A stretch of DNA of 64,000 bases from Ceratodon purpureus (taxonomy: Eukaryota > Streptophyta > Bryopsida > Pseudoditrichales > Ditrichaceae). The position numbers were made by a program, and so were the translations under genes. Shown one piece after another: positions 4,115 to 22,040 of this stretch. The notes beneath the pieces are model-generated. The model was not told where the DNA came from and did not search any database. It saw only the letters and a program-made list of their open reading frames with translations. The stretch covers positions 47,173,611 to 47,237,610 of the forward strand of contig CM026426.1 of assembly GCA_014871385.1 (NCBI GenBank), given 5' to 3'. Position 1 is the stretch's first letter. Every line of letters starts with the position of its first letter.

Positions 4115-4122
4115 TGTAAGAC
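4115..4122. repeat. Left 8-bp target-site duplication of the large hAT element
   Basis: The sequence tgtaagac lies immediately outside the left terminus and is repeated without mismatch immediately outside the right terminus. An 8-bp duplication is the hallmark of hAT superfamily insertion. Confidence 0.93.
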
Positions 4123-4190
4123 CACGGTTGTTCAAACAGACGTCCGACCCGGCTCCGGACGTCCAGACGTCCGACCGGGACGTCCCCCGT
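4123..4190 (+). repeat. Left terminal and subterminal repeats of the hAT element
   Basis: The terminus CACGGTTGT is followed by four copies of the palindrome GACGTC (4139-4144, 4158-4163, 4166-4171, 4179-4184), mostly in the context GACGTCC. A CCGGGACG...TGACGTGG stretch reappears in the complement of the right end. Clustered subterminal motifs are where hAT transposases normally bind in addition to the terminal repeat. Confidence 0.8.
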
Positions 4191-4237
4191 CCCTGACGTG
4201 GCGTCCCCGACACTCGAGAATTACGTCGCGGTAAAAA

Positions 4238-4895
4238 TTATGCGACCCCGGGGGGGTAAAAACATCCCCCAACCGTCCGATGGGCCGATCCCGCCACCAC
4301 GCCCCATCTCGGCCGTCCGTTCGCGGGAACGGCCGCAGGGACGGCCGCGGAGACGGCCGCGGGGTCGCTGGAGACGGCCGTACCTCGATTCGACGGCCAA
4401 GATGCGGCCGTCCCGGCACATCGCGGGCCGTCGCATGTGGGCGGCCCTCTTGGGCCGTCGGATCCCGCGGCCGTCCCCGTGGCCGTCCCCGCGGTCGGCC
4501 ACGGCGACGGCCGCGAGATCGGACGGCCCGCGGCCGCCATGGTAGGCTTGGGAGGGTCGTCTGATCGGGCGGCCGTCCCCGGGTCGGCCGCGGGGACGGC
4601 CACGGGATCGAACGGCCCGCGGCCGGCATGGTCGGCCGCGGAGGGCCGTCCGATCCCACGGCCATCCGCGTGGGCGACCGCGGGGAGACGCGGCCGTCCG
4701 CGTGGCCGACCGCGTGGAGATGCGACCGACCGCGGAGACGGCCGCGTCGGGCGACGGCCACGCGGCGCCATCGCACGACGCGGCCATCCGATCGGACGGC
4801 CGGCGCCTTCGGGCGGAGTCGCGCCGGATCGGACGGCCGCGGGGGCCGTAGATCCGACGGCTGCGGGGACGGCCGTGGGGACGGCCGCGAGGTCG
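4238..4895 (+). promoter_or_regulatory. CpG-dense CGGCCG/GGCCGTC island A, upstream of gene 1
   Basis: Extremely GC- and CpG-rich DNA in an AT-rich setting, built from irregularly spaced words CGGCCG, GGCCGTC and the complement GACGGCC in both orientations. Long open frames run through it in several frames on both strands, but they are Arg/Pro/Gly/Ala-only translations of the repeat words and are not credible genes. It ends exactly at the TATA hairpin of gene 1. Similar islands precede the other three genes of the element, so a promoter, enhancer or protein-binding role is likely (inference). Confidence 0.7.
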
Positions 4896-4918
4896 GCTTC
4901 CCCTATATAAGGGGAAGC
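4896..4918 (+). promoter_or_regulatory. TATA box inside a perfect inverted repeat, gene 1 promoter
   Basis: Perfect 8-bp arms gcttcccc (4896-4903) and ggggaagc (4911-4918) enclose tatataa (4904-4910). It lies at the downstream edge of CpG island A, about 278 bp before the ATG at 5182. The same design occurs before genes 2 and 3. Confidence 0.7.
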
Positions 4919-5181
4919 TGCCTCTTCATTTTTTACCTTTTTTCTCCCATTTCGAGTGAGGCTGATTGCTACTGGTGGGGGATTCTCTCCTTCTCCGTTG
5001 GTCGTTCTCACCGGGAGGAAAGGGGTCATTCATTTGGAGGGGGGGGGTGGACTTTTCGAATTTTTAAATGGTTTTTTTCAAAACCCTTTGGATTTGTATT
5101 GCTCTTATTAATCTTTGAGGGAATTGAGGGTTTATTTGGAGTTGCGGATTCGATTTCTTGTAGCCTTGAAGGCTTTCCACG

Positions 5182-5592
5182 ATGCCGAAGAACAAGAAGC
5201 AGAAGAATGTGGGGGAATGGACGAACAAATTCGATGACATGCCGAGCTTACGTTGCAGGGATTATATTGTGGCATTCATCGTGGAATTTTACCAGGAGAA
5301 CACCCTTGTTTCATTGAATGGTCGTTACGTTCAGTATGAAGAAGATGGGCCCAAGAAATTCAAGTCAGAGATGGAGGGAAAGATTAGGGATCGTTTGACG
5401 GATCTGTGCTGGCATTCGGATACACAGAAGCCCGGTTACGATCATTTCGTGTCACAGCGTGCACAAGATGCGTTATGGAATGCTCGTGAGGTTATTTCTA
5501 AGTATGCAAAGGCGCAAAGGGGGGGAGTCCAGGCCTTCAAGGATACTATTGCAAAGGCAGATTGCTTCACGAGACTAATGGCGCCCCTATGA
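5182..5592 (+). CDS. Gene 1, N-terminal part, unknown domain (136 aa to first stop)
   Basis: First part of the kinase-like gene, starting at the first good ATG about 280 bp after the TATA hairpin. The N-terminus is Lys/Asn-rich (MPKNKKQK), then comes a mixed alpha-type sequence with several Trp and Tyr residues. I recognise no family. A TGA at 5590-5592 ends the frame. Beyond it the same frame still reads like protein (KLKKASTGVYYLVEFSDWDG) up to a second TGA at 5662-5664, and the kinase domain continues in the next frame. Either this is the first part of one gene damaged by a nonsense change and a frameshift, or an intron lies between about 5530 and 5730. A G-run at 5520 is a possible indel site. 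I see no convincing splice pair. Confidence 0.55.
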   Translation: MPKNKKQKNVGEWTNKFDDMPSLRCRDYIVAFIVEFYQENTLVSLNGRYVQYEEDGPKKFKSEMEGKIRDRLTDLCWHSDTQKPGYDHFVSQRAQDALWNAREVISKYAKAQRGGVQAFKDTIAKADCFTRLMAPL

Positions 5593-5728
5593 AAGCTCAA
5601 GAAAGCATCGACGGGCGTCTATTACTTGGTGGAATTCTCCGATTGGGATGGAGACGGCGGCTGACTTACGTAGACGGCATTTGACTATCTTGGCAGACTT
5701 CGCAATTTTCTATTACTTGGACAAGTAA

Positions 5729-6661
5729 GTTCAGAGAGGTGGTTATGCTACCATATGCAGGGTTCGTATCGAGGGAAACCCGGAAATCCCACCATTCTGG
5801 GAGTTTGCTGAGAAACGGCCGCTCAATTGGTCTATGAGGCCGGATTTGGCACGTGTGGACCACAACAATGAATCTCTTGCGATAAGGATTCCCCATCCTG
5901 GAGTCATCCGCTTCATAGCCATTCATCAGTTGGAACATGTGGGATTCATGTACTGGTGGAACGGTGGGTCCCTTCGAGCCATGCTACAGAGAGACAACGA
6001 GGCCCCGGGTGACCTCTCCATCGACTACATCTTCAGAGGGAATGCAGAGGACAGTCCAACTCTAGGAAATCGTCTCCGACTTTTCCAAAGTAAAAGTACA
6101 GAGCTTGCTTGGGCATTGTGTAACATCATAGATGCTGTGCACAAATACGGTTACCTCCACAATGACTTGTCACCGGACAACATCCTACTTCACTTTCCGG
6201 AAGATGAGTCCAAGATCTACATCGAGGTTTGTGATTGGGGCTTGATGACGAAGACACTAGAGAACAGAAGGTCGCCTTGGGTTTTTGAGAGTGTCCATCA
6301 GAAGGAGGAGACTATGAGGAGGCGATACTGGGTGGATCCTCGCGTGGTATACGTACACAAGGAAAACCAAGATATTCAAATCATTCCAGATTTGACGGTT
6401 GCATCGGAGGATTTCGCAGCCGCAAAGATTGCGGCAAAGATTAACAGGGACAACATGTGCACGGCATACCACGAAGCGGAGCCAGTAGAAACACGCCATT
6501 TCAAAAGGATCAGAGAACTCGCAATGGTTTTTGAAGGTTACCTTGAGAGAGTTTGCCAAAACAACAGAGGAACGATGGGTGGACTCGGACATCTTATTAA
6601 CCGTTTCAGAGATACACACAACTGGCCCACTCCCTTCGAGCACTACCGCGTGGGTTACTGA
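5729..6661 (+). CDS. Gene 1, protein-kinase-like domain
   Basis: An eukaryotic protein-kinase fold can be followed through this frame, which opens after a TAA at 5726-5728; the first ATG is at 5834. In order: a degenerate glycine loop (GGYATICRV), the ATP-anchoring Lys in FAEKR, the alpha-C Glu in NNESL, a hinge region with MYWWNGGSL, the catalytic loop HNDLSPDNILL with the usual Asp and Asn, and a DWG metal-binding motif in place of DFG (EVCDWG). WVDPR stands near the usual APE position. All core catalytic residues are therefore present, with HND for HRD and DWG for DFG. I cannot assign a kinase subfamily. Its first strand lies before the ATG at 5834, so a product starting there would lack the glycine loop and Lys. 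The real product must start upstream or the gene is broken. The C-terminal 80 residues are less kinase-like. Confidence 0.65.
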   Translation, partial: VQRGGYATICRVRIEGNPEIPPFWEFAEKRPLNWSMRPDLARVDHNNESLAIRIPHPGVIRFIAIHQLEHVGFMYWWNGGSLRAMLQRDNEAPGDLSIDYIFRGNAEDSPTLGNRLRLFQSKSTELAWALCNIIDAVHKYGYLHNDLSPDNILLHFPEDESKIYIEVCDWGLMTKTLENRRSPWVFESVHQKEETMRRRYWVDPRVVYVHKENQDIQIIPDLTVASEDFAAAKIAAKINRDNMCTAYHEAEPVETRHFKRIRELAMVFEGYLERVCQNNRGTMGGLGHLINRFRDTHNWPTPFEHYRVGY

Positions 6662-7596
6662 TATGGAGAGACATATCTACCTCTCCGTATTCCTATAATT
6701 TCATAATGTTTTTTTTGTTACCAGACGGCGGGCATAGCTCTCAGTAGTGAATAGTTATATTTAGACTCTATATTATTATGAGATGTTGGCATCTCAATTT
6801 TTGTACATGGGTCAATATTTTGTTTATAAAGTTTACTTGCATTTGGTTCAAATATGGTCTCTGTACTGAGATTGGTCTATTTCTACCCCTTGTATTATGA
6901 GGAAAACGGATTGGCTCCACACATCCAGCTAAAAGTCGATAGTCTCAATTCTAATTATGAAAATGATGCGATATGTGAATTGTAACCGTTATGCTTTGTA
7001 CGTTTTACTCTTAGAAATATTGGCAAGCGTATACTCAAGTTCTTTTCGTGAAGACGAAAGCGTAAGGGCCGCATAACATGATTGCTCATAATCCCCGGTA
7101 CAAACAAATACCTTAGATATAAATATGCATCCCTCAAAAAATATCATTCACGATATTCTTATTAATTTAGCAAAAAAAATATTTGAAAATTATTTTGCAT
7201 ACTTGTCTTGAGATTCATAATATTCAAGTGGTTGTAACCCATGTCAATGGTAAGTTGTCATTTAAAAAATAGTGATATTGATATTAATGTGCACTTAGAA
7301 TACCGCCAAGAGAAGATTAAAAAGACAAATTCCTTTCAAATGTCAAGACAACTACAATATAGAAGACAACACAACTACACTCTATTCCACTAATTCTATC
7401 TATTCTATTTGCAATATGTGGCAGGTGCCAATTTTCTTGAGTCCGTACATTTTAAACCTCCATCTACAAAACTGCAAACTACATACACACTATGCTTGCA
7501 TCTTTTACTTTACGCTGTAAATTTGTAATATGCGATGTCCACATTAAAGACTCGGTACGCTCCGATGCTGTAGAAAGTACTACCATGCACCCCATT
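6662..7596. other. Spacer between convergent genes 1 and 2
   Basis: AT-rich DNA between the 3' ends of two converging genes. It must hold both 3' untranslated regions. I see no clear AATAAA signal or gene. The 60-codon minus frame near 6955-7137 has no recognisable feature. Confidence 0.6.
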
Positions 7597-9159
7597 CTAA
7601 TAGTCTCCCCTCCACCCTAATCCATTGTAGTCATATGGATGATAATAGTTCCCATCATTGGGGAGTTCGCTTGGACCTCCCCGATCGTACGTTTCTTGTG
7701 GCCCGCGCCCTGCATAATTTGTGGAGGCTCTCAAAAGTCTCTCTCTCTCCTCCATCAATCTTCGATTATCCCGTCTAAGGTGAAACGCATGATTCTCCAT
7801 CAGTAGTACGTAATTTTGCCTTGTCCGCTCCAACTCTGATTCTTCCTCAAAATAGCTATCTCTTACAACTCGACCGGGAGGGTATCCAAAAGGAAGAGGT
7901 GGTACTCTGTCATCGGGATGAAGTACGTTGCGGTTGTCCCCGCTATTGTGATCAGTACCGTCGGTGTGATAACCTAGAGGTGGAGGAAATATTCTAGGCG
8001 GAGTGTGAGAAGATGATCTGTAATCATCTTTTGCAAAAACGGCAAATGGGGTAGCATGACCACCAAATCCGCGGTATGGAGGGGGAGTTGCGAAATGATC
8101 ACGTCCCAGTCTCTGCGTAACTTCTACGCGATCTAGGGAATGACCGTGAGGTTCCTCTCTTGCAGGTGTTCGATGGCGCGGACTAGCACTCCTTGGAGGA
8201 CTCGGTATTTCCGACCAGCCGTCCTCATAGTTACTAAAGTATCTTGATCTTGTTGCATAATCTGGCCAAGGTCGTCCCCCATACGGTCCATACGCACCAT
8301 CCGCAAAGTCAAAGGGTAAATCAGCTCCTTCCGGTTCCCCGTGGCCATAGCCTCGTTCGTGGGGTCCCATGTCTTGACGATCTCGCGAACGGTGTCCCCC
8401 GTGGGCAGAGGTTTGTCCATACTCCTCATGGTTGGTACGCGATGACTCTCAGCCACGATGCCCTCTGCGATTCCTAGGATTTTCGTTTGAGCGACGCCCT
8501 CGATAGTTGTCTTCATCATCATAGCTTAAACGACGTCTCTCATGTTCTTCATCATTATATTCGATGGCTAGAGTTTTTATTCCTGCATCTTGTGCCGGTG
8601 GACTCCGACGGTTTGAAATATGTAGTGGAGGACAATCGCTATGTCCAACCCAGGTTGTGTCAAGATCCATGCTTTCTCTATTCATTCTATCTGTCCTCAG
8701 GCCCAAGATTGTGGTCCAATCAACCCTCTTGTGTAAGACTATCTCCGCCCACACCATTGCCATATTCGAATACAACATGATATGAGGTCGGGAGTTTTGG
8801 ATTTGTGCTGCTCGAAATATCTCGTTATATCTAATTTTGAAATGATTACTTTCACAATTGTCAATTCTGATCTCTCCCCGTGTTGCCTGTTTCTCCGCAG
8901 CCTCGGTACGTAGATGTACTGGGATCAACTTCATGAGGTGCTTCATCTTTACATATTCCTTGCAAGTTACCATCCGCCATGGTGATGGTTCCCCCTCCCA
9001 TCCAAACTCTGCTACGCAATCAGGGTCATTCGTAGCGTATGGATCCAAGGGGTGTTTCCTTTTAGGAGTGGAGGATCCTCCCCGATCGTTACGAGGCATG
9101 GCGAAAGTCCGGTAAGCGAGTACCTGTGAAAACTGTGTATCGAACCAACCTTGTAACAT
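7597..9159 (-). pseudogene. Gene 2: new N-terminal domain, low-complexity middle, coiled coil; one in-frame TGA
   Basis: A single 520-codon frame, broken only by a TGA at 8451-8449; without it the frame runs on for 257 more recognisable codons after the next Met. The start is ATG at 9159 or, more likely, at 9099 (MPRNDRGG). Residues about 49-150 form a domain shared with gene 3: VAEFGWE, YVKM, HFKIRYNEI and MVWAEIVLHKRVDW. About 190-380 is disordered and rich in Arg, Gly, Asp, Tyr and Ser (RRRLSYDDEDNYRGRR and similar), resembling RNA-binding or phase-separating tails. Near the C-terminus there is a charged heptad-like coiled coil (FEEESELERTRQNYVLLMEN). No enzyme motif is visible. It could be a DNA/RNA-binding or scaffold protein of the element (inference). 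The TGA would have been CGA (Arg) before one C-to-T change. Either the gene is dead, gives a 236-residue truncated product, or relies on readthrough. Confidence 0.65.
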
Positions 9160-9434
9160 TGGCTGTAACTTCCCTCCACCGTATAAAAGTTGATTTAATC
9201 TCGTATATATCTAGTGCATAAGGACCAAAACAAAACCCAGAACTCCTGCCAGAAAACCGTACGTATGAAGCACTATTTTGTTGGTTTCATAATAACCAAC
9301 AAACGGTGCTGACAACCCTAAACACAATCCCACGATAACCCGTGGGGAAGTAGACGAAGCTTGGTGGAACGCAACTGAGCTGAACTAAATCCAGCACATG
9401 TAGCACAAGCACCCAAGTGGAGAAAAAGGATGCA

Positions 9435-9457
9435 GGGCCAGCCTTTTATGCTGGCCC
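9435..9457 (-). promoter_or_regulatory. TATA-like box inside a perfect inverted repeat, gene 2 promoter
   Basis: Perfect 8-bp arms gggccagc (9435-9442) and gctggccc (9450-9457) enclose cttttat, which reads ATAAAAG on the coding strand. It sits between CpG island B and gene 2, about 290 bp before the ATG at 9159 (350 bp before the alternative at 9099). Confidence 0.68.
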
Positions 9458-9486
9458 GAACCTCTAGACAGCCAGTTAGGTCAAAC

Positions 9487-9703
9487 AACGGCCCTCCTAC
9501 GGCCGTCCCCGGGGTCGGCCGCGGCCCAACACGCGGTGACGGTTGTGGGCGACACCGCGGTCGGAGGCTGCGGCCGCGTGGACGGATGGCGTCCGCAGCC
9601 GTAGATCTTCTTGGCGGAGAAGATCCGACGGCCGTGGGCGACCGCCGTCTACGCGGGGTCGGCTGTGGCCGTCCCCGGGGACGGCCGGGGGGGGGGGGGG
9701 GGG
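9487..9703 (-). promoter_or_regulatory. CpG-dense island B upstream of gene 2, ending in a 17-G run
   Basis: Same word usage as island A (acggccgtcc, ggtcggccgcgg), with a run of 17 G at 9687-9703 on the + strand, so a C-run on the coding strand. Shortest of the four islands. Overlapping open frames here are compositional artefacts. Confidence 0.65.
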
Positions 9704-9927
9704 TCGAAGGAACTCCCCTCCCCTTGTGTTTTCTCTCCTCTCCTTTCCCCCTCTCCTCCCCTACTCTCCCCCCTCCTTCTCGTCCCAAACAATCCCACTT
9801 GGGATTGTTTGGACAGCGTATCTCCCCCAAATGGAAAATTCAGACATATCTCGGATATTGTGGGGAATGTCCTGAAGATCCTGTGATCGGGGAGGTAGGG
9901 TCAACGTTTAAAATTGGGATCCAATGA

Positions 9928-12360
9928 ACTATGTGATATTTTGGTACTTTGGCGGTGGATCAACCCCTAGGATCTACAAATAATGTGAACACGTTTATGA
10001 AGAAGAATATATATCCTATTGAATGGAAAGAACCGTAAACATTGTGGGTATACTAAAACAGTTTTTACCAATTTTCATTTAAAGAAACCAAGTTACTCAT
10101 GTTTTAGCATATGGTAATGAATTAACATTTTATAATAACGAATCAAAAGAGTAAATGTCAACAACGAGATGATAAAAGGAACATCGCGGAGAAATTGCAT
10201 TAAAAGTAATTAAACGCATAAATTCATGTACACACTTGTTTTTTCATGCGGTGCAACTTACGTTTACATGGTTAAGAGATTTGCATTTATATTTTACCGG
10301 TTTACCGTTTCATAAATCTCTTAGAAATATAGATCCATTTTCTTCTCGAATAGTGGTACACAATGAAAATTTTTATATAGATTCTTTGACTCTAATTTTT
10401 TATGGAATGATTTATACCACTTTTATTTCTTTAATTTTACATACTCCCGTGCTTTAGTATTTTGATAAAATCAAAAATAAAAACATAAATAGTAGTTTAG
10501 ATTATAAGAGAAACTGGAGATAAAATTAAATTAAAAAAACAAAAAAAAACATTCAATTCTCTTAGAATTATGGAATTTATGGGAGGAATAAAACTCAAAT
10601 CATTGTTTTCATAACCAATGGTCCAATTCTAATTTCTCACGCCTAGTTTAGAGTTATATGAAATATAAAAACTCTCCTTGCACTTTTATGTCTTTTATTT
10701 TACACACTCCTATACCCTAGTACTCTATTAACATTAAAAATAAAATAAAATTACTAGCTCACATTATGAGATGAGAAAGGGATAATAGTAAAAAACAAAA
10801 CAAAAACAGAAAACATTCAACCGTCACTGAATAATGCCAATTTGTGAACGACTAAAATTGAAATCATTGTTTTTATAAACAATTCTAGTTTTCCACGCCC
10901 AAAATTGAGTTGTAACTTATATGAAATAAAATAAATAAATTAGGTAAGACATTTACATTATATACTATAGGAATATATGTTTATTCATATACACTTTAAC
11001 GTAAATATAAATATGGAATTGGATTCCAACTTGTATAGTACATACGTACAAAAGTAATCACTTACTAATGACACAATGAGAGAATTTAACAAGCACGATA
11101 ATTCATAGAGACACATAGACTATACTGTACCAAGGAAAAATTAAAAAGTCACGACGTGAAATACTTGGAGCTACAAGTACGGAAATAAAATTATTACACG
11201 AAAACGTATATTGACGGGACATAATTTTAGAAATAAATATATTATTGGAATACTAAAAATGCTGATGAACGATGTTTGGTAGGGTGGTATTGTTTCGGAA
11301 TAGTAATTAATTAAATTAATGAACAACACAAAGAACAAGAGGTTTGAGGACGGATATGAATATTAGAACTATAACGACGACGGGTGTAATATTAAGAAAT
11401 AACGTATCGATACACTTGGGGAAAGCTGTGAAGTAGAAGTATATTCATAAGTAAACAAATGAGTGAACCATCGAAATAATAGACGAAAAAAATAGAGGTA
11501 GAGAGGGAAAGTAACGAAATTATAATTATTAAAATAAATAGACAACGGCCATGATGTAGTGATACATGGAGAGTTCAAAACGTATATATGAAAGAGGGGT
11601 ACAGTACTCAATAAAAACTAAAGCAGTAGGGTACATCTAGTAAAATATAATTTAAAACTAAAGCAGTAGGGTAGAATTAGTAAAATGGTGGAATAGTGGT
11701 TGAATTAGTAAAATATACTTTGACATGGGTCGTGGAGGAAATAAATCGAAATAGGAACGTTTGAAACGATATAAAAGGAAGAAATTCACGAAATGACATT
11801 TATGGAGCTTCGAGGCTTGCCGTGGTAGATTAGACAAATTAGACGTTAAAAAAAGGGCATAAACTAGGGGGGAAAAAACATAGAGGAAAATAAAGAAGAA
11901 GTAAATGAAAAACATATTCGAGAGTGGAAATTGTATAGAGGGAAGAACGTTAAAAGTACATAAAGAGATGGTAACCCGAATTAAATTGAGAATATGAAGC
12001 CGTTTAATGAAAGTATAATAGAAGTATTTATGTATTTAAAAAAAAAAAAATTCAAAGCGGAGAATAAGAAGACGGAGGACTATTAAGATTACAATTTTTG
12101 AAACGGGTTTAGATGAGTTCGATTTCTGCAAAGAACTTCTAGAGTGGGATGGTAGACAGTATGAAATACGTACGACTAAAATAAAAAAACAAATGATTCG
12201 AATAAATGACACATACATTAACTTGGGTGGAGGGTACGGAATAATGACTCGCTGAAGAATTTAGATGGTTTGCATACCATGAAGTCTTTTAATTCATGTC
12301 AACATTAACTGTTGTTCTGATTTTAATTGGTGAAAGAAATTAACAAGTTTAGTCTAATAT
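9928..12360. other. AT-rich central spacer of the hAT element
   Basis: About 2.4 kb of very AT-rich DNA separates the two gene pairs. No frame is convincing: the longest plus frame (10236-10457) and the minus frames at 11369-12218 are Phe/Leu/Ile/Tyr-rich translations of A/G-rich DNA. From about 11.1 to 12.2 kb the + strand is strongly purine-biased. A short tandem repeat containing actaaagcagtagggta occurs twice (about 11616-11690). It could be filler between two ancestral halves, a regulatory spacer, or decayed DNA inserted into the element. Confidence 0.6.
10433..10930 (+). repeat. Diverged tandem duplication of about 255 bp
   Basis: Two adjacent copies start at about 10433 and 10690. Shared blocks in the same order are ttttacatactcc / ttttacacactcc, an A-rich stretch ending in acattcaa, tcaaatcattgttttcataa / tgaaatcattgtttttataa, and a cacgccta/cacgccca block followed by gagtt...atatgaaat. 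By eye they are clearly related but substantially diverged. Confidence 0.6.
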
Positions 12361-12414
12361 GTGGTCGGAAGATGTAGCATTATATGTTTTTATCATTTTG
12401 TATTTAAAAAAACA

Positions 12415-12440
12415 GGGGGGGGGGGGGGGGGGGGGGGGGG
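12415..12440 (+). repeat. Run of 26 G at the distal edge of island C
   Basis: Uninterrupted homopolymer at the border between the AT-rich spacer and CpG island C. It could form a G-quadruplex. Its exact length is doubtful in any sequencing or assembly. Confidence 0.85.
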
Positions 12441-12905
12441 AGTTTCCCGCGGCCGTGGGCCGTCTCCACGAAGGGCCGTCCGCGGGGACGGCCCTTCGAC
12501 CACGGCCGTGATCGAACGGCCGTCTCCAAGGCCGTCTCCAAGGCCGTTCCCGCGCGATCGGCCGCCATCGGACGGAGACGGCCGCAGAGACGGTTACGAT
12601 CGGAGGGCCGCAAGCCGCCCCTTCGGGGGCCGTCTCGAAGGCCGTCCCCTCGGCGACGGCCGCCATCAGATGGCCGTCGCCGAGGAGATGGCCCGATCGG
12701 ACGGCCGCGAAGGCACGGGCCTCCGCGACCGTCACTGTGGCACCCGACCCGACGGCCCCCAACGGCCGTCGTCAGGTTCGGGACGACGGCCATTGGCCGC
12801 GGCCGTAAAATCGAGGGCCGACGGCCCTAGGCTCGGGGGCCGACGGCCCTAGGCTCGGGGGGACGGCCGTAGGGTTGGGGGCCGTCGCCATATATGGCGA
12901 CGGCC
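12441..12905 (+). promoter_or_regulatory. CpG-dense island C upstream of gene 3
   Basis: CGGCCG/GGCCGTC words on both strands, including near-tandem copies (gtctccaaggccgtctccaa; ctcgggggccgacggcccta). It ends at the TATA hairpin of gene 3. Overlapping frames on both strands are translations of the repeat words. Confidence 0.68.
12881..12904 (+). promoter_or_regulatory. TATA-like box inside a perfect inverted repeat, gene 3 promoter
   Basis: Perfect 9-bp arms gccgtcgcc (12881-12889) and ggcgacggc (12896-12904) enclose atatat (12890-12895). The ATG of gene 3 is about 258 bp downstream, the same spacing class as gene 1 (278 bp). Confidence 0.68.
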
Positions 12906-13025
12906 GTCTCCCTCTTCCTTACTTCACTCTCCTCAATTGTCCCTCTCCTATTGCTACAGTTTCCCAATTCACTTGGGAGCTTGTTGGTACGTGGAGGTGA
13001 GGAGATGGGGGTCCATTTTTATTGT

Positions 13026-13043
13026 GGGGGGGGGGGGGGGGGG
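13026..13043 (+). repeat. Run of 18 G in the gene 3 leader
   Basis: Homopolymer between the TATA hairpin and the ATG of gene 3, so probably in the 5' untranslated region. Gene 1 has a 9-G run at the equivalent place (5039-5047). Confidence 0.85.
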
Positions 13044-13147
13044 TGTTTTTGAATTTTCTGTATTCGTTATTTTGTAAACCGTCATTTATCAACTCCTTGT
13101 TTTCTTTAAAACAGAACCATAACTTATTTGTTTAAAACGAGGTTACT

Positions 13148-16100
13148 ATGGCGGATGCGCAACATGATGAGATTGGAGGAACCGGGAAAAAGAATAGGCC
13201 AAAGGGAACGTGCCACAACTTTTCATGGGAGATCCTAGACAACAAAAACATCGTAGCGGAAGAAGGGTGGGAATCTGTGGGGGAGATTTTCTGGACTTTC
13301 AAGGAGTGCAAGAAGTATGTGAAGATGTATCACATTGATAAGTTGTGGCCCCAAGAACAACACGATTTAAACACACGGAGTTTTACCTGCAAGCCCTGGT
13401 CATGCATCGATGACCATTTCTTGCATCGAGCATATGAGGTCTGGACTACTATGTTTGGGCAACGTAAGCCTAGCAAAGGCCATTTCAATTATACCATTTG
13501 CAATATGGTATATGCCGAGCTAATATTGAAGCAGAAGATTAGTTGGTGTACGTACCCCACTACGAAAGACAGGCCGCTGCAAATTGGATGGATGATAAGA
13601 GACATTCCGGATTTATATCTGATCGATCCTTTGTAAGCAAAGAAGGTCGTAGCGGAGTTCCGAAAGCGGCAATGACCACATCTAAAGAGCTTTTCGAAGA
13701 ATGAAGTAAAAAAATTACAGAATGAAACTCCGCATCGTCCAGAGGAAAAGAAGCCCGTTGCCATTGCCAATGTGATCGCTACAATGTTCCCCATTGCCAC
13801 GGAAATTAATGTCCCTGTTATTCCTAGAGCAGACCTGGGAATCACGGTGAAATCTTCCAACGATACAAAGGGCAAGGCGGCCGTAGATGAGGTGGAAGTT
13901 GAGGTGGACAATGACTGTTCAACACATCTTACGGCTGCAGAAGCTGGATGCTCCAACCCTCGTTCAGTGGACGATGGTCCGAGTTTCTTGGCAATAGTAC
14001 AAGTGCCTACCAAAGAGGATAGCACAAAGGATGCAGTTCATTCCATTTCGGAGATTATGGAGCTGGTAAAGTTGATGCCAAACAACGAATCATTGAAGGA
14101 GTTACTAGATTTTAGCATCAAAGGGACGGAGGTGTCCTCTGATGAACAGCGTGAGGGCTTTGAGAATACCACGGTGGGAGACGATGCAGGAAAAACCACG
14201 GAGGAAGTGCAACAAATTCATAATGTGTTGAAGATTGCACACACCCTGAAAGAAGGGGCTTCCGTATTAGGCACTATGGCACCAAAACTCATAAACATGG
14301 CTCATGCATTTGGAAGTATCACTCCGGGCATGATACATGGTGCCCTCGGCTTTGAGACTTTGGCATCTTCCATTAAGCCTCTTCTGGAAGACCGTGTGCA
14401 ATTAGGCGAAGAGAACGTGGCCCTGAGTAAGGATTTAATGGAGGCAACGCAACAAATCAAGAGTTTGACAAAAAGCTTGGACAAAGTGAAGATGAATTGG
14501 AGTGTACAATTGGAAGAGTGCAAAAAGTTCCACCCGATAGTTAAGGAGAAAAACAAAATAAAAGAAGTGAAGCCTACGGTGAAGAAGGAAGCGGTGAAGG
14601 TGGACGGAAAGAATGGTGTCATTGAAGTACTGAGCAATGATGAGGATTCCGATGACCTCGGCCTCTCTAAATTCTCAAATAAAAGTGGAGATGGGGCCAC
14701 ACAAGGGATGGCGTCTCAGAAGTCTAAAAGGACATCTAGTCCAGTTCCATTGGACATTGGCTCTAGCCAAGCAACACCAAGACATGAGGATAGAGGAAAA
14801 GGGCCAATGGATGATTCAAAGGAATTAGACATTCTTTTACGGGATTTGGAGGTGGCTAGAAGGGAAAGAGACGAGGCCCGTACAGAACTGGAAAAGCTGA
14901 AGACCACTATACAGATGGTAGATGATACACCATCTTCCACAAGGGCATTATCATGGCTTGGTTGGGTCTACAAACTACGAGATAAGGAGACAATAGTCTC
15001 TAGAGCACAACAGGATATGAAGAAATGTGCAATTACTTCCATGGATGTCGAAGAAGCTATCCAATCATCTTTACAGAAGTATAACAAGGCAGCAGCCAAG
15101 GGCGGCGAGGATGCTACAAAAATCACGATATGGCGCGATGTAGGAGAAATGATGGAGCGCACATTACATAGTTCCAAAAATAAAGAAGGGGTCATTGATT
15201 GGGCGCTAGAGGTCAAGGAGGGGTGGATGCCGTACGATGTACTATCATCTCATTTGGATGAATCGAAACGTGTGGTTATCCATACCCGCAAACCGTCGGA
15301 GGAATATTCGAAGGAGACGTGTCCCATGTGTCAACAATATTTTACGCCGGAAGGGGCCTTTGAGATGGGAAATTGTAATCACAAGTTCCACATAACCTGC
15401 ATCGCGAAGGCTGCTTTAAACAACAAACAGTGTGTTATGTGCCGCTCCCCAATTAGTTCACGTTTTTACGAGATGCTCGGACTACAACACGTGATGCCGC
15501 CCGGGCATGAGTTTGATCGGTGGAATTTACCACTAGACCAACTACCTAAGAAAGAGCTGAATTATTATGATTGAGGCAAATCACTGGCTTGGAACCCGGA
15601 GACAATGACTCACCAACTATCTACGGCTGGCAATTTCGAATTGGACGATCTTTCATGGATGACACACGACTATGAGGTGGAGATGAGGGCACGTGAAATT
15701 CCGGATGCCAAGGAGCAAGAATTTTTTTGTAGGAACTTCGGTGGACATTGGAGTATACATGGTAATCGCTTCTTCCGGTTTCCAAAACCGGAAGTTGTGG
15801 TAGATGCCGACGGTAAGAGGAGAGAAGTTGAACGTGACTATGGCCAACTTGATGAGTACAAGATGTATGACAGAACCCCGATTGGGAGGGCACTTGTATT
15901 GGCCAAACTAAAAGAAGCCATTTAGCATCGTCGCACTTTTGCAGAGGAATCCTTCAAATATTCGGACCTAGACTACTGGGTGATCATTAAGAAGTCTGAC
16001 GATGCTCTTCAGAAAATAGTTTGCGACTGGAGAAGGGCACTTCATGCGGAGGATAATTCCTCTTGTTGGTCACGCACTAGGATTGAGAAGATTGTGCAAG

Positions 16101-16318
16101 AAACAGTAGCCAAGATTGAGAAGGCAATGGAGTTGTGGGACGGGAAGAATTCCAAGAAGCGCAATCAAGACGCCCCTTATGAAGATGACCCTGAATGGAG
16201 GGTAGATAATCGTCGTTCTTTAGAACGCGTGGAAGAAGAATATCGAGCGGGGGGTACGATTACACATCCAAGCCAGCGACGCCAAACTCGGAGGTCAAAT
16301 GCAAACAATGGACGTTGA
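13148..16318 (+). pseudogene. Gene 3: one 1056-codon frame with RING finger, broken by four in-frame stops
   Basis: From ATG 13148 to TGA 16316-16318 the sequence stays in one frame with protein-like composition. It is interrupted only by TAA 13634-13636, TGA 13673-13675, TGA 15572-15574 and TAG 15923-15925. Coding character continues straight across each stop, for example AKKVVAEFRKRQ between the first two and HRRTFAEESFKYSD after the last. Order of parts: residues about 36-135 are the domain shared with gene 2 (VAEEGWE, YVKM, HFLHRAYEV, MVYAELILKQKISW); about 170-480 is acidic and helical; 491-503 is a SUMO-interaction-like motif (VIEVL then acidic); about 555-595 is a coiled coil; 725-765 is a RING-H2 finger; the last 240 residues are unknown, charged and rich in Trp/Arg. 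Each stop is one C-to-T step from CAA, CGA or CAG, which fits decay by methyl-cytosine deamination; readthrough is the alternative. Confidence 0.7.
13772..15574 (+). CDS. RING-H2 / SIM-like protein (600 aa uninterrupted part of gene 3)
   Basis: Longest uninterrupted part of gene 3; the ATG at 13772 is simply the first after the second stop and may not be a natural start. The RING reads C725-x2-C728-x14-C743-x-H745-x2-H748-x2-C751-x10-C762-x2-C765 in whole-frame numbering, with all eight zinc ligands present. RING-H2 fingers recruit ubiquitin-charged E2 enzymes, so E3 ligase activity is the expected role. Upstream, a hydrophobic VIEVL followed by an acidic Ser/Asp stretch resembles a SUMO-interaction motif. 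SIM plus RING is the combination found in SUMO-targeted ubiquitin ligases. A coiled coil (about 555-595) suggests dimerisation. Targets are unknown; the transposase or host chromatin proteins are possibilities (inference). Confidence 0.7.
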   Translation: MIATMFPIATEINVPVIPRADLGITVKSSNDTKGKAAVDEVEVEVDNDCSTHLTAAEAGCSNPRSVDDGPSFLAIVQVPTKEDSTKDAVHSISEIMELVKLMPNNESLKELLDFSIKGTEVSSDEQREGFENTTVGDDAGKTTEEVQQIHNVLKIAHTLKEGASVLGTMAPKLINMAHAFGSITPGMIHGALGFETLASSIKPLLEDRVQLGEENVALSKDLMEATQQIKSLTKSLDKVKMNWSVQLEECKKFHPIVKEKNKIKEVKPTVKKEAVKVDGKNGVIEVLSNDEDSDDLGLSKFSNKSGDGATQGMASQKSKRTSSPVPLDIGSSQATPRHEDRGKGPMDDSKELDILLRDLEVARRERDEARTELEKLKTTIQMVDDTPSSTRALSWLGWVYKLRDKETIVSRAQQDMKKCAITSMDVEEAIQSSLQKYNKAAAKGGEDATKITIWRDVGEMMERTLHSSKNKEGVIDWALEVKEGWMPYDVLSSHLDESKRVVIHTRKPSEEYSKETCPMCQQYFTPEGAFEMGNCNHKFHITCIAKAALNNKQCVMCRSPISSRFYEMLGLQHVMPPGHEFDRWNLPLDQLPKKELNYYD

Positions 16319-16793
16319 GTAGAGTATTTACGTTGGACATGGTACCCGCATTACTTCGGTTAATGTGACAATACACTAGGTGATAGTCGTATTTAGAGCA
16401 ATATATATATATATATTGGTTGCGTAGCCGGGTGTATGGACTTTACTCTACCTCTATATGTACTTGCAAAAATTACCTCTGGTTTTAATACAATTTCATT
16501 TATGTTTTCTCGGAGTTGCATTTGTGTTGAAAGAATTGTAAGTACTTAGATGCATCAAACTTCATATGTAGATTTTGTACATTCATTACAAGAAAGAAAT
16601 TGCGAGAAGTACAATCAAAGTAAACATAAGTATACAACGTGGAGGACAATATTGAGGAGGCAAGCACCACCGCTTAAAAGTTAAATGTATATGATATGAT
16701 AATGGTTTCTAGAAATGGACATTCATAAAAGAGTGGCATTCTAGGGTGGTGCACTGGAAATTCTGCCTTCTAACTATTGTGCGCAAATTGCAA
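16319..16793. other. Spacer between convergent gene 3 and the transposase gene
   Basis: AT-rich 3' regions of two converging genes, with a short (AT)n run near 16400-16420. No gene or clear polyadenylation signal seen. Confidence 0.6.
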
Positions 16794-19778
16794 TCATGCC
16801 ACATAATCGCTGTCGTCCTTTACTTCGGCCCCACTAGGACCGGAAGAATCGTATTCGTCATCGCCATCGCTCTCGCTTACCTTCTTCACCCTCGCCTTAG
16901 TCTTCTTCTTTGACTCGAATGGGTTCATGAATTTCTTTGGGCCATTCGGGTCATCCAAAGGAGTTTTTGGCTTCCCAGGATTGAAAGCCAACACCTTCAG
17001 AGTCTTGTCTACAGCCTTCCGCTTGGACATGGCTCTAGCAGGGGGTTTTTTAGGAAATATGTACGGTTTTCCCAAAGCCAACTTCAGCCCAAAGAGATGC
17101 CCAATTGGAAGTCCATCATCAGTAGAGAGGATGCCCGGGTCCGCTAGTCGGGTTTGGACCAATCTCTTCCTACATTTCTCCGCTACTTCAGCAGCCTTAG
17201 CATATGCCTTCATTTTTTTAGACAACTCAACCAACCTCGTGGACGATTTGAACCCACCAACTTGGACCCTAGTCTTTGCAGTTCCAAACAATGTCCGAGA
17301 CGCACCCGATACGGGTACGGGCACATCCTCCTTTGTAGTGGCTGGAACCATTTCCTCCTTTAGGCGGTTGAAGTTTGGAGAAACAACCATAGAAGTATTA
17401 AGGGTGGGGTCTTCCTCTTTCTTTGGTACGACCAAATCCACGGTAGTATGAGAGGATCTTCCCCGCAGAATCTTATCACTGTTTAGTAAACCGTCTCCAT
17501 TCAGAAAAGAGGCAAGATGAATCGTATCCTCCTCGTTGGTACCTTCTTCTTCGACATCATCATACTCGAAAGCATGCTCCATCAGCGCAGGAGAACAACG
17601 GGATTTTCCTTTCGGTGAAACCTCGAGGTCGTCCACTGGGTTATCAATGGAGGGGTCAATTGATAGATCGTCGAAGGGTACATCAACATCAGACTCACTA
17701 GAGTAGTCAACGTCCTCGGTTTCCATGGCCTTCGGATCCTCCTTCCCCTCCAACTCCCCATAGAACCTCCCTAAGGCACTCAACTTAGACTGGGAAATTA
17801 TCTTGGAATTTGTATGAACAAACACGAGGTCATTAGCCCTTTCCGGAAGTAAATGGTTTCGCTTCCTGTCGTGGACAAAGGAGTAGCTACTCCAATTCCG
17901 CTTGCATGAAGAAGAAGACAGGGGTTGAGCTAAAATCCTTTTTGCAATTGGGGAAATGAATTTACCAGCGGATCCGTATATATCCCACCAACCAGAAGGC
18001 GGAAATTGTGACTTAGAGGAGTCACGTACATCACGAAACGGAGGATAAGCTTCACGAAATGCAAAGAACTCTTCTATGACCACTCCCTTCAATGTCGGAG
18101 GAGCCATCGACAACAAGACCGCCTTCGCCGATGCCATCGCATCAATATCATTGTGAAGGTCCTCATCGTCAATAAGATAAGGGTTTAGAAGTGCAGTAGC
18201 ACACTTTAAGGGTGATTTGACCATGGCTTTACGCTCATAAAATGAGTCCTCGCAGAAATCACCATTATCAGAGTCTAGTTTGAAGGGCTCATGGCGTAAA
18301 GAGAGAACATGCTTCTCAAGGTTGCGGAGAACGACGTAGGCTTTACCCAATGCCGATTCCTTCGCATCAAACTCTCGAAGGGCATATACAACGTGACTCG
18401 TCATCCACTTGAAGTTTGCACATTGCTCCCAGAAAACGTCATCCAAGACAACCCTCTTAATATTGCGTGAGATCTTTGCTTTGTCACGGGCAGATAAGGT
18501 CTTCTTTGTTTCGTAGTTTCTCCAGTCAGGATCCACAACGCTTTGCTCCAATGCTCCTTGGACCTTCAACAGACGCGAAATCATAATGTAGTGCGATGCA
18601 AACCTAGTCTGTCCAGGCATCAGCAAGCTAAGTTTTGCCTTGTGCTTTCGAAATACCGAGAGTGGCATTTGCCTTATCTTTAAGAACTTAACCAAGTTCT
18701 TAGCCCGATCTACGAGCTCTTTGACCCACATCATCTTACTCCAGTCCTCCAACAAAAGGTCCATCGCATGGGCAGTACATCCTTGGACAAATATGGATGG
18801 ATAGAGTGCTTGGACCAACTTTCCGGCATTAAGCATCACCGGAGCATTATCGTAGCATACTTGAATGATGTTCTGTTCTCCAACTTGTTGGATAAACTTC
18901 TCAATGACGGTCGCTACGAAAACGGCATCCTTCTCTTTCCCACTCGTGTCAATGGCTCCCAAGAATAACTCACCAGCAGGAGATACCAGCATTGCGTTTA
19001 TTAGAGGGCGACTGCTTAAAGAAGTCCATCCATCGAGGGCCAACGTTCCCCCGTACTTCCTAACACTGGAAAAAATCCTATCATTCAAGGAAGTCTCCAA
19101 ATCAGACCTTGCTTGGGCTAGTAAATTTGTTCGGAGATGGTGGAAAGATGGAGGTGTGTATGATCTCTTCATGTTGGACGTCTTCAACACCGCGTCCTTG
19201 AAAGAGGCACTCCGAGCCACGTTAAACGAGATACTGTTCTCGTAAAAACATGTGGCCCATGCTTTGTCGCATTCCCGCCTCTGAGTCTCTTCGAAGCCCT
19301 CTTGAAGGGTAGATTGCCTCTTTGCCTTCAAAGGAGGAAACTGTCCACTACCTTCCCCCGGAAGAGTGGAAATGAAAGGTACACCCTCACCAAATAAAAC
19401 GGGTTCATTCTTTGGAGTAGAAACCCGGGATTCAGCGCATGAGTCCACATCCATGGGAGTGTTCACTCTCGGGGATATATTGCCACGAGTCACGGGGGAA
19501 GTACTATGCTCCGACATGAATATTCGGGAGTCGTCGGGGAATTTGCCACCGCAATTCTTGAACAAGGACTGTATAGCGGGTGACAAATTAGTGCAACGAC
19601 CTACTCCACTAGTCCGTACCCCTAGAACTTTGTCATAGCCCAAATGACTGAGCATCCGCTCAATCCTCTTTGCGAAAGTGTTCTTGCATAGCATACATTG
19701 AATCATCTCAGTCTTCTTCTTCTCCGCATCGATCATATGAACTTCAGTATACCATGGTGAGTCACTTCTAGACGCCAT
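16794..19778 (-). CDS. hAT-superfamily transposase (BED-like zinc finger, DUF659, hATC), 994 aa
   Basis: Uninterrupted frame. It is also open upstream to 19871 but has no ATG there, so I take ATG 19778 (MASRSDSPWY) as start. In this numbering there is a BED-like zinc finger, C28-x2-C31-x13-H45-x16-C62; then a DUF659/RNase H-like core with the first two catalytic acids D249 (in ALDGWTS) and D310 (in CYDNAPV) and the GCTAHAMDLLLEDW motif; then a hATC dimerisation region with RILAQPLSSSS, RNWSSYSFVH and NDLVFVH. Residue K626 (codon 17903-17901) stands where the family has the Glu of the C-E-R-N-W motif, taken as the third catalytic residue. After hATC there is an unusual tail of about 300 residues, first acidic and then Lys-rich. 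It would bind the element's ends and perform cut-and-paste transposition in the nucleus. Length is above the usual 600-800. Confidence 0.9.
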   Translation of the reverse strand: MASRSDSPWYTEVHMIDAEKKKTEMIQCMLCKNTFAKRIERMLSHLGYDKVLGVRTSGVGRCTNLSPAIQSLFKNCGGKFPDDSRIFMSEHSTSPVTRGNISPRVNTPMDVDSCAESRVSTPKNEPVLFGEGVPFISTLPGEGSGQFPPLKAKRQSTLQEGFEETQRRECDKAWATCFYENSISFNVARSASFKDAVLKTSNMKRSYTPPSFHHLRTNLLAQARSDLETSLNDRIFSSVRKYGGTLALDGWTSLSSRPLINAMLVSPAGELFLGAIDTSGKEKDAVFVATVIEKFIQQVGEQNIIQVCYDNAPVMLNAGKLVQALYPSIFVQGCTAHAMDLLLEDWSKMMWVKELVDRAKNLVKFLKIRQMPLSVFRKHKAKLSLLMPGQTRFASHYIMISRLLKVQGALEQSVVDPDWRNYETKKTLSARDKAKISRNIKRVVLDDVFWEQCANFKWMTSHVVYALREFDAKESALGKAYVVLRNLEKHVLSLRHEPFKLDSDNGDFCEDSFYERKAMVKSPLKCATALLNPYLIDDEDLHNDIDAMASAKAVLLSMAPPTLKGVVIEEFFAFREAYPPFRDVRDSSKSQFPPSGWWDIYGSAGKFISPIAKRILAQPLSSSSCKRNWSSYSFVHDRKRNHLLPERANDLVFVHTNSKIISQSKLSALGRFYGELEGKEDPKAMETEDVDYSSESDVDVPFDDLSIDPSIDNPVDDLEVSPKGKSRCSPALMEHAFEYDDVEEEGTNEEDTIHLASFLNGDGLLNSDKILRGRSSHTTVDLVVPKKEEDPTLNTSMVVSPNFNRLKEEMVPATTKEDVPVPVSGASRTLFGTAKTRVQVGGFKSSTRLVELSKKMKAYAKAAEVAEKCRKRLVQTRLADPGILSTDDGLPIGHLFGLKLALGKPYIFPKKPPARAMSKRKAVDKTLKVLAFNPGKPKTPLDDPNGPKKFMNPFESKKKTKARVKKVSESDGDDEYDSSGPSGAEVKDDSDYVA

Positions 19779-19982
19779 TGGTGCACTTGATAGATCGCCC
19801 GGAAAAACTTCAAAAAATCGGGGTACCACGTCCTCAAGTGAACTAGAGCCTCCGAAGAAGCTCCAATTCAATACACTTCTGAACGCCGCCGTTCACCATG
19901 CAACAGATACACACGTATATTAGTGCAACTAGTAGCACATGGAGTACAATTCAGAAGTATTATGCCAACTTCCAGGAGGGGT

Positions 19983-19990
19983 CTTTTATA
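19983..19990 (-). promoter_or_regulatory. TATA box of the transposase gene
   Basis: The coding strand reads TATAAAAG about 212 bp before the ATG at 19778, between the gene and CpG island D. Unlike the TATA boxes of genes 1-3, it is not enclosed by a good inverted repeat. Confidence 0.6.
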
Positions 19991-20036
19991 CTCATCCCAT
20001 GAAATGCCAAGGGGTAAGCCCTAAAAATCAAGGGAG

Positions 20037-20240
20037 GACGGCCGTCGAGGCCGTAAGTCAAGCGGGGGGCCATCGGATCATGGGTTGTCACGGCCGTCGA
20101 AGGGGCCGTCGCCGGGGACGGCCCTCCCCCTCCGCAGCGACGGCAAGGGGCCATCGCCGGGGACAGCCCCCCCCCCCCCCCCTCCTCGGCGACAGCAAGG
20201 GGCCGTCGCCGGGGACGGCCCCTTCCCAACGCGGCCGACG

Positions 20241-20277
<37 letters not shown>

Positions 20278-20290
20278 CGGCAACGGCTGC
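20037..20290 (-). promoter_or_regulatory. CpG-dense island D upstream of the transposase gene
   Basis: CGGCCG/GGCCGTC-type words with a near-tandem palindromic unit ggggccgtcgccggggacgg (about 20113, 20149 and 20199), and C-runs of 16 (20167-20182) and 33 (20241-20273), which are G-runs on the coding strand. Overlapping frames are Gly/Pro/Arg artefacts. Confidence 0.68.
20082..20098 (+). repeat. Internal copy of the terminal repeat
   Basis: gggttgtcacggccgtc matches 16 of 17 positions of the right terminus read on the complementary strand (gggttgtcacggtcgtc, 20454-20438). It faces right, so it lies in inverted orientation to the true right end about 360 bp away. It may be an accessory transposase binding site or the relic of a smaller ancestral element end. 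Confidence 0.6.
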
Positions 20291-20381
20291 ACCCTCCCTC
20301 GCAACCCCTCCCCCGAGTTCAAGGTGTGGTTTCACCCCGGGGTGAAACCTGTGCGGGTGATTTTTTTTTTCTAAGTCGCAT

Positions 20382-20456
20382 GACGTCCTGTGGCGCTGGC
20401 GGACGTCCGCGGACGTCCCCACGTCACGAGCGTCCCGGACGACCGTGACAACCCTG
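20382..20456 (-). repeat. Right terminal and subterminal repeats of the hAT element
   Basis: Complementary strand begins CAGGGTTGTCACGG. Three GACGTC palindromes lie inside (20382-20387, 20402-20407, 20412-20417), mirroring the four at the left end. Confidence 0.8.
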
Positions 20457-20464
20457 TGTAAGAC
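20457..20464. repeat. Right 8-bp target-site duplication of the large hAT element
   Basis: tgtaagac, identical to 4115-4122. A further tgtaagac occurs a few bases later (20470-20477), apparently part of the original target locus. Confidence 0.93.
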
Positions 20465-22040
20465 CCCCTTGTAAGACCATTTCTAAGGCTGGTTGTAAAC
20501 ATACCTTTATATGGCTAGATTTTAAGTACTTTGCACATAGTTTCAAGAATCTTAGATCTCTACATTGAGCTCACTCTATGCACCACTCTTGAAGAGTCCA
20601 TTATTTCTGACAATTCTAAATATATTATAGACTTTATGTTATATTATTATCTTTGGAGGTGGCTTTGCACCGGCTTTGGAAGACACCTTAAATTTATAAA
20701 CTTTTTGTCTTACAGCCCAAAGTGTGCAAAAGTGAAACTAAGTCGAGATTGTAACCCACTATCTTAGGGGTCTTTCTGTCCCAATTGGGGTTTTGAAGTT
20801 TGTCTCAGATCTCTTTGGAGGGACGCTGCTCTAGAGAGGGTTGGTTAATGTTGTTGCATGGCTCTGACCTACTCTCACATTTTGGAAATTGCCTTTGATG
20901 GTAATGGGATAATTAAAATCAGGAGGCTTGGGCAGTTTTAGATTGCTTCCCACAATCTGGGGTTCCTGATGGTTGGCTAAGTTAGAAGAGCGTGAGCGGT
21001 AGCAGTTGCAAAGCGCATGAAGCACTTGAATCAAAATTCCAGAGCCTATCTGCATGCCCTATCGAGGTTACCTTGGAGTTACAGCATTTAGAGGTCAAAA
21101 GACCTTAACGACCACTATGATTGAAAAAGAGCTCCGAGAGGTGGAGAGCCCTAACAAAATTTGGGTTACAAATGGTGTGTCTGTAAGAGTGTGTCCCCTC
21201 TTTGTATACATGTACCCCGGTTTAAAAGAGCAAGGATGAAACGGCGACACTGCATGAGGGCAACGATGGCCAGATTGATTGCGCATAGCATGCGACGAAT
21301 CAGTTTGAGGAAACTGACTGCAGCTAGGCTATGTGCAACATTTTATTCGATGTTATTTTATTTTCTTTGAGTGAAGGCAGGTGGGCAATGCAGAGAGCAA
21401 GCAAACCGGCAAGAACAAAGGAGGAGAGCAGGCAGTCGCAAGGGAGTGGAACCTTGCATGCGGAATCTAGGGAGCGAAACCTTGCACGCGGAGCTGAGTT
21501 TGCAAATTTAATTGCATAAGTGGGGGTGCACCATCGCGCCTGTGCAATTTACTTAAGTTGAATTTCAACTAAGCTCTGTGGGTTAAATTTTTATATTTCC
21601 AGAGGGAAGACGAAGAACTGAAGCTGGACGGTTGTCTTCAAAATCAAAGGTTTTTTAAAATTACTAATATTATTATTTAAAGTACTTTTAACCACTTTTA
21701 ACCTCTTAAAATTATTTCTAATAATTGTGTCAAGAATTGTTGCACTTACTTTGAATCTGAGCTGAGATTGGGAGGCTCTGTTGGTTGAGTTTTAATAAAT
21801 TTGAATAGTTTTTCTTAAGAAACAAAAAATGGGACTCACAAATTTATTCTCTTCATGATACTTCGGTCCTGAATATTCAATGTGGACGTCTTTCTATTTT
21901 CATGCAACATTGTATTTGGGTAGGAAGTTAAGAACCATGAAGGTTAGGTCTAGAAATTACCTAATCAGAAGTTATAGAGTAATGGATTTGGTTAATCTTT
22001 TGAAATATAAAAATAATAAGTAAGGTCAGATTATAAGTCA
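20465..22040. other. Right flank of the hAT element, no supported gene
   Basis: AT-rich DNA with short frames only. Nothing in the translations around 20531-20767, 21054-21370 or 21331-21519 matches a family that I know. Confidence 0.55.

Follow-up and report, generated by a model that had tools for sequence, protein, structure and literature searches.

A single hAT element of 16.3 kb with a transposase gene and three accessory genes in the moss Ceratodon purpureus

We analysed a stretch of 64,000 nucleotides (the window) from Ceratodon purpureus, C6:47173611-47237610 of the 362-Mb assembly GCA_014871385.1, where C6 is contig CM026426.1. Positions 4115–20464 of the window hold a single hAT element with a transposase gene and three accessory genes, a unit of 16,334 bp enclosed exactly by the 8-bp target-site duplication TGTAAGAC at 4115–4122 and 20457–20464. 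A preliminary description of this DNA had proposed perfect 8-bp target duplications, GACGTC-rich subterminal DNA, an internal hAT transposase and matching short termini. The first three were found as described. The termini are short, inverted and begin with CA, but in this copy they agree at 8/9 bases (CACGGTTGT vs. CAGGGTTGT) and are not a perfect match. The left terminus (4123–4146, plus strand) is a few bases off the 24-base left end that most of the other copies examined have in common, and the right terminus (20433–20456) reads inward on the minus strand. Taken alone, an 8-bp duplication around 9-bp inverted termini with at most one mismatch is a weak signal, as 13 such places occur in the window vs. 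6.4 per first-order Markov shuffle; with a CA start required of both termini, the same scan gave one in 3/30 shuffles. The case is strong because the duplication and termini coincide with GACGTC clusters at both ends, with the transposase gene, and with a second motif, GGCCGTC/GACGGCC, whose 53 sites in the window all lie inside the element (53/53). Nine of the 11 GACGTC sites of the window are inside the element, including four in the left subterminal cluster (4139–4184) and three in the right one (20382–20417), and the only exact matches to CASGGTTGTY on either strand of the window are the two element termini. The sequence tgtaagac is repeated five bases past the right duplication (20457–20477), and the insertion site therefore lies in a short local repeat.

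The four genes form two convergent pairs in the order + - + -, the arrangement previously described. In the first pair, gene 1 (5182–6661, plus strand; 491 residues in intact copies) is kinase-like, with a Pfam kinase match (4e-6, 26.8 bits) that is below the Pfam cut-off of 31.7, and gene 2 (7597–9099, minus strand; 500 residues in intact copies) encodes a conserved N-terminal domain and a variable low-complexity tail, for which no Pfam match was found. In the second pair, gene 3 (13148–16318, plus strand; 1056 residues in intact copies) encodes a RING-H2 protein (Pfam RING match 1.8e-6, above cut-off) whose N-terminal domain is in common with gene 2, and it faces the hAT transposase gene (16794–19778, minus strand), an open frame of 994 residues with matches to DUF659 (2.2e-34) and Dimer_Tnp_hAT (7.7e-9). 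Between the pairs is an AT-rich spacer (9900–12410) in which the longest listed frame has 125 codons; one strand of the spacer at 11101–12100 is 61–69% A+G in 200-base steps and has no long open frame.

The accessory genes had been described as kinase-like, RING/SIM and low-complexity. These assignments were retained with the exception of the SIM (SUMO-interacting motif) in gene 3, which was not supported, as the motif is not kept across the gene 3 family. The three genes are present in the window copy but broken: gene 1 has a frameshift near 5590, gene 2 one in-frame stop, and gene 3 four. The frame of the transposase is open, but the C-terminal Glu found in 14 aligned relatives, which we take to be the catalytic Glu of the hAT family, is Lys here, and for this reason the window copy is probably dead and unable to move itself.

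The GGCCGTC/GACGGCC sites of the window are located 5' of the genes: 22 form an array before gene 1 (4311–4886), four precede gene 2 (9501–9686), 20 form an array before gene 3 (12458–12908) and seven precede the transposase gene (20037–20220). Predicted TATA-like boxes are situated approximately 215–354 bases upstream of the four start codons. Those of genes 1 and 2 are at the centres of perfect palindromes, with 9-bp arms for gene 1 (4896–4918, plus strand) and 8-bp arms for gene 2 (9435–9457, minus strand), and that of gene 3 is a TATA-like ATATAT within a 26-bp perfect palindrome (12880–12905, plus strand). Such palindromes were produced by 0/50 second-order shuffles of the element. The transposase TATA is without a palindrome of this kind.

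To place the window copy within a family, 21 copies were examined: the window, ten copies in 20-kb stretches, and ten by their ends alone. Both ends were found in 11 of the 21 (window, C6a, C13b, C6b, C4, C11, C8, C6:17.65, C8:4.69, C2:25.0 and C6:72.95). The 24-base left end was identical in 17/20 fetched copies, and CAGGGTTGT was at both ends in 9/11 two-ended copies, and the other two, the window copy and C6:17.65, each differed from it by one base at one end. Duplications could be scored in ten copies, C8:4.69 having been left out as its left flank has unread letters. Nine of the ten, the window included, had perfect 8/8 duplications that were all different (TGTAAGAC, ATTTAGTC, GTCATTAC, GAAACAAA, ATTTTTTT, ATTGGGAA, CTTAAAAC, TAGCTCAC and GCCCTATC), and C6a matched at 7/8.

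The linkage of the four genes was read in the 11 long stretches (the window and the ten others), and seven of these (window, C6a, C13b, C6b, C4, C11 and C1) have all four in the order + - + -. In C11 all four frames are open, at 491, 500, 1056 and 994 residues; in the other copies at least one gene is broken. The preliminary description had looked to further copies that share the boundaries and all four genes but have other 8-bp duplications; C13b, C6b, C4 and C11 are such copies, as is C6a with its 7/8 duplication, and the accessory genes are inside the terminal repeats in these five as well as in the window. The proposal therefore withstood both refuting outcomes that had been set for it, a lack of any second copy and accessory genes outside the repeats.

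The promoter features also recur among the copies. In 6/6 four-gene copies counted, each of the four genes is preceded by GGCCGTC sites, in varying number, with the array before the transposase containing 7 to 26 sites depending on the copy. Across seven copies, there were 549 motif sites in 108,677 bp of element vs. 20 in 31,323 bp of flank, and all 20 flank sites adjoin the C11 copy. Part of the family's left end, inverted and 86% identical, sits in the right flank of C11 (L023) near the intact copy, and the flank motif sites are there. The palindromes of genes 1 and 3 recur in several other copies and are unmatched in some, and that of gene 2 recurs in 9/10 other copies, with its core altered in six.

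The C6b copy allowed an empty site to be reconstructed. This copy is a 17,010-bp insertion with the duplication GTCATTAC inside the transposase gene of a second hAT. When the insertion was removed and the flanks joined at a single GTCATTAC, the target gene became continuous, and residues 1–693 of the protein P0005 aligned as a single match spanning the junction, at 38% identity. Read from these sequences, the element of 16–17 kb is a unit that enters its target whole and duplicates 8 bp there. At the level of sequence, hAT-type transposition of the family is established because of the target duplications and the C6b empty site.

The proteins of the element were compared with candidates from other sources. 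Of 7999 candidates scored, 22 were relatives of the transposase, from 93% identity down to a protein of Chara braunii with 29% over 40% of the query. In an alignment of 14 of these with the window copy (A1), PF05699 and PF04937 were found in 15/15 sequences, as were both D residues, and E was in 14/15, the exception being the window copy (K). The E was also present in 6/6 other genome copies where the transposase motif was read. We take the D, D and E positions to be the hAT catalytic residues. Seven relatives of gene 3 were found among 8000 candidates scored, four of them of similar full length at 81, 65, 40 and 39%, and the eight RING ligands were complete in 7/7 members of the gene 3 family. 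One composite search gave 58 relatives of the kinase and gene 2, the closest kinase relative being KC19_VG055000 of Ceratodon purpureus (92% over the kinase part). The kinase K, D, N and DWG-D were invariant in 25/25 aligned homologs (A6, 25 of the kinase matches chosen mostly for full length). The families of genes 2 and 3 have a common N-terminal domain of 144 aligned columns (hhalign 1.2e-22; BLASTP 7e-10 with single members); a link of gene 1 to this domain was looked for and not found. Members of the gene 2 family (alignment A7, which excludes P0068, a kinase) were 64% identical in pairwise comparisons of the N-terminal part and 29–40% in the remainder.

Scans of viral contigs with the RING, transposase, kinase and gene 2 alignments gave no relatives, and bacterial genome contigs gave no transposase relative. 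A weak kinase match over ~70 residues in the bacterial L001 was taken as a generic kinase. One kinase relative, P0055, is filed under a Bacilli metagenome-assembled genome and looks like plant contamination. Sequences of solved structures had no match to the kinase profile (E 0.001) or the transposase profile (0.01). Among contigs from other sources, there were two pairs of a transposase and a RING contig with the same source and identical size (7321 and 8444 bases), where 0.011 matches were expected on jittering. From these equal-sized contigs we infer that the transposase and RING genes are also linked outside this genome.

Selection on the genes was estimated from changes counted against the majority of copies, with stops kept separate (1, 5, 4 and 0 for genes 1, 2, 3 and the transposase, respectively). 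For gene 1, the distinct changes in 13 copies gave a ratio of nonsynonymous to synonymous change (dN/dS) of 0.44 (p=1.6e-4), and six copies of gene 2 gave 0.50 (p=0.004). With the window copy included, the ratio was 0.52 over three copies of gene 3 (p=3.5e-5) and 0.30 over four of the transposase (p=4e-17). Pairwise values were 0.32–1.16 for gene 2, 0.39–0.58 for gene 3 and 0.12–0.42 for the transposase. These tests treat changes as independent, and the copies were few and picked by good kinase matches, favouring an intact gene 1. Changes private to a copy also include those that arose as it decayed once inserted, and active copies may therefore be under stronger selection than measured. By these values, all four genes bear the mark of purifying selection, and we consider it almost certain that the element is a one-unit, multi-gene element under selection.

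The target of the C6b insertion gave a view of a second, deeply diverged hAT lineage. The region around the target transposase was read without the insert over 24,982 bp (the L016/L017 flanks; L050, L051 and L052). Its transposase frame is 45% identical to P0020. About 1 kb beyond the transposase is a kinase relative (41% to P0088, 1e-108), and ~3 kb upstream of it is a gene with both the shared N-terminal domain (30%, 3e-15) and a RING part (31%, 4e-22), read in two overlapping frames. P0087 aligns at the kinase position in this region, which makes its label as gene 2 doubtful. All the genes of the region are on one strand, in an order and orientation unlike those of the window family, and the diverged copy looks decayed. 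Because relatives of the kinase and the RING gene adjoin so distant a transposase, the region suggests that the association of a kinase and a RING protein with hAT transposases is old.

Usual hATs are a few kb in length, and plant hATs have mostly been described as small cut-and-paste transposons. The moss element resembles hATs of the DUF659 branch in its 8-bp duplications, its short inverted termini starting with CA, its DUF659 and Dimer_Tnp_hAT domains and its D/D/E residues. It differs in its size of 16–17 kb and in its three conserved accessory genes with their own predicted promoters. Its termini are within the 5–27 bp given for hAT terminal inverted repeats in PMC12506042, and the C-terminal dimerisation region and movement as one unit (C6b) likewise accord with hATs.

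Four other groups of large or gene-carrying elements were compared with it. VANDAL elements, in the portions of PMC5735166 consulted, are plant DNA transposons with extra genes (VANA, VANB and VANC), a variable accessory protein and noncoding tandem arrays that vary between copies, in all of which the moss element is similar. VANC is described there as demethylating its own elements, its targets often being tandem repeats that differ between copies. Unlike the moss element, VANDALs are Mutator-like, no kinase or RING protein is named for them in those portions, and VANC has DUF1985 and DUF287, which were unreported in the Pfam scans of the moss genes; a Pfam scan of nine translated stretches gave no Mutator-type transposase domain and hAT domains instead. 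ToxhAT/ToxTA of wheat-pathogen fungi is likewise a DNA transposon of 14 kb with a passenger gene and was first called a hAT; according to excerpts of PMC12506042, it is now assigned to Tc1/mariner on a 2-bp TA duplication and 74-bp inverted repeats, and is likely non-autonomous. Starships are also large, cargo-bearing DNA elements of eukaryotes, but excerpts of the same source give their mover as a DUF3435 tyrosine recombinase, whereas the moss element has a hAT transposase, and no DUF3435 domain was found in the nine translated stretches. Pack-type elements too have non-transposase genes within the ends of a DNA transposon, but these are gene fragments without a transposase in the passages seen of PMC6431247 and PMC6446971, whereas the moss element has full genes and a transposase, with the transposase and three genes together in 7/11 stretches and all frames open in C11.

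The view that multi-gene cargo within one hAT is not a described class has so far held, as no description of a multi-gene hAT of such a kind was found in the open-access literature, subscription papers being mostly outside the scope of that search; a prior mention may exist in the Ceratodon genome paper, Repbase or elsewhere. The word hAT is absent from the giant-transposon review PMC6431247.

We favor, with moderate confidence, the interpretation that the window element is a now-inactive copy of an autonomous multi-gene moss hAT family in which genes 1–3 serve self-regulation in a wide sense. The transposase would bind the GACGTC-rich ends and cut and paste the element. Gene 2, gene 3 and the kinase would constitute a self-regulation module that sustains expression of the element, most likely by recognising the GGCCGTC arrays before all four genes and countering host silencing in a VANC-like manner, and the kinase and RING protein could modify the transposase or host silencing and repair proteins via phosphorylation and ubiquitination. 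An anti-silencing role for the accessory genes is a more tentative proposal, which we hold to be possible but rather less probable than its opposite.

Several observations weigh against parts of this interpretation. The anti-silencing role is argued by analogy, and the GGCCGTC arrays may be nothing more than promoter DNA. Within the letters fetched, 10/21 copies gave no right end, nine of them showing the left end alone and one (C5) neither end; an insertion, a deletion or a stretch that ended too soon could account for these. Four of the 11 long stretches are without one or more of the genes: gene 1 is present in all four, accompanied by partial genes 2 and 3 in C3, by gene 2 in C13a and C8, and by a gene 2 lying far off in C2. 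In some pairwise comparisons dN/dS approaches or exceeds 1, reaching the 1.16 noted for gene 2. Among the contigs from other sources, no kinase or gene 2 contig was paired by size with a transposase or RING contig, and four kinase contigs were 14–28 kb. In the diverged region, the kinase frame is interrupted by a stop and reads CNWG at the CDWG motif, there are three scattered GGCCGTC sites in ~25 kb and no array, and the ends of an element were not found, so that its three genes were not placed in one element. The decay of the diverged lineage and the failure to find its ends lower our joint confidence in the interpretation.

The alternative that fares best gives the accessory proteins a direct part in transposition or in host processes, for example repair, the cell cycle or transposase turnover, and takes the arrays to be just strong promoters. 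We consider this unlikely overall. In its favor, the catalytic residues of the kinase (25/25) and the RING-H2 ligands (7/7) are those of protein-modifying enzymes and not of DNA readers, and the palindromic TATA boxes resemble core promoters. Such direct action leaves unexplained why one tandem motif is common to four promoters and absent elsewhere in the window, and why gene 2 has a VANC-like variable tail beside a better conserved N-terminal part.

A second alternative is that genes 1–3 are cargo serving the moss or a sex-chromosome drive, with the transposon as their vehicle. The distribution of copies bears on it. A search of the assembly with the kinase found at least 87 copies, 57 of them without an internal stop; these are the best-scored of 1124 candidates, hence a lower bound, and the window's own broken copy is not among them. 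C6 (110,524,308 bases) carries 52 of the 87 scored copies vs. 30.5% of the bases (binomial p=2.8e-8), and the annotation of C6 treats the kinase like any other gene. C6 is a sex-chromosome contig, either U or V: the locus tag reads VG, and a commentary (PMC9273592) gives sizes of 110.5 Mb (U) and 112.2 Mb (V). Copies with stops are commoner on C6 (24/52) than elsewhere (6/35), as is expected for decay in a non-recombining region, stop-free kinase copies are present on ten other large contigs, and the 87 are the best-scored candidates only. On balance, a cargo or drive role is improbable. Outside the element, the window also has a 61-bp hairpin at 52670–52730 with a perfect 28-bp stem and a 5-nt loop.

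The remaining two alternatives were rejected. The preliminary description held that gene capture alone would not explain the uniform promoter design. That an ordinary hAT recently took up three host genes in the Pack-type manner is very improbable because dN/dS is below 1 in all four genes and the diverged transposase has kinase and RING relatives beside it. Plant DNA transposons are known to take up gene pieces, as noted in PMC6431247 and PMC6446971, but the genes here are full-length and open, with same-length relatives for the kinase, gene 2 and gene 3; the protein searches detect relatives with exact shared words, and distant host paralogs could escape them. That two adjacent or nested elements (genes 1 and 2; gene 3 and the transposase) mimic one is barely credible, since the C8 copy that would favor it, a 7.8-kb unit (L024-L025, 1349–9151) in which only the kinase and gene 2 remain and which is flanked by a perfect 8-bp duplication of its own, has the same outer ends as the full copies with the middle missing (it may have been moved by transposase from other copies), the window has no internal exact terminus, and the single 17-kb insertion at C6b contradicts it.

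Returning to self-regulation by the element's own genes, the broadest form of that reading would be an old moss hAT lineage with its own toolkit (a kinase, a RING ligase, paired domain-sharing regulators, and promoters with tandem arrays and palindromic TATA boxes) used as a sequence-specific anti-silencing system independent of VANC. This lineage would have spread to at least 87 copies and loaded a sex chromosome with kinase genes annotated as host genes. We offer this full scenario as speculation and think it unlikely to be right in every part.

These findings have consequences for the study of hATs and for the annotation of this moss. With a hAT transposase tied to a kinase, a RING protein and a variable regulator, tests of VANDAL-like counter-silencing in hATs become possible. 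For annotation, the 87 or more kinase copies belong to a transposon family, with 52 on the sex-chromosome contig, and two relatives appear in the annotation of Ceratodon purpureus as hypothetical proteins. The title of the Ceratodon genome paper reportedly describes the sex chromosomes as gene-rich. The gene counts of sex chromosomes described in that way may therefore include transposon genes.

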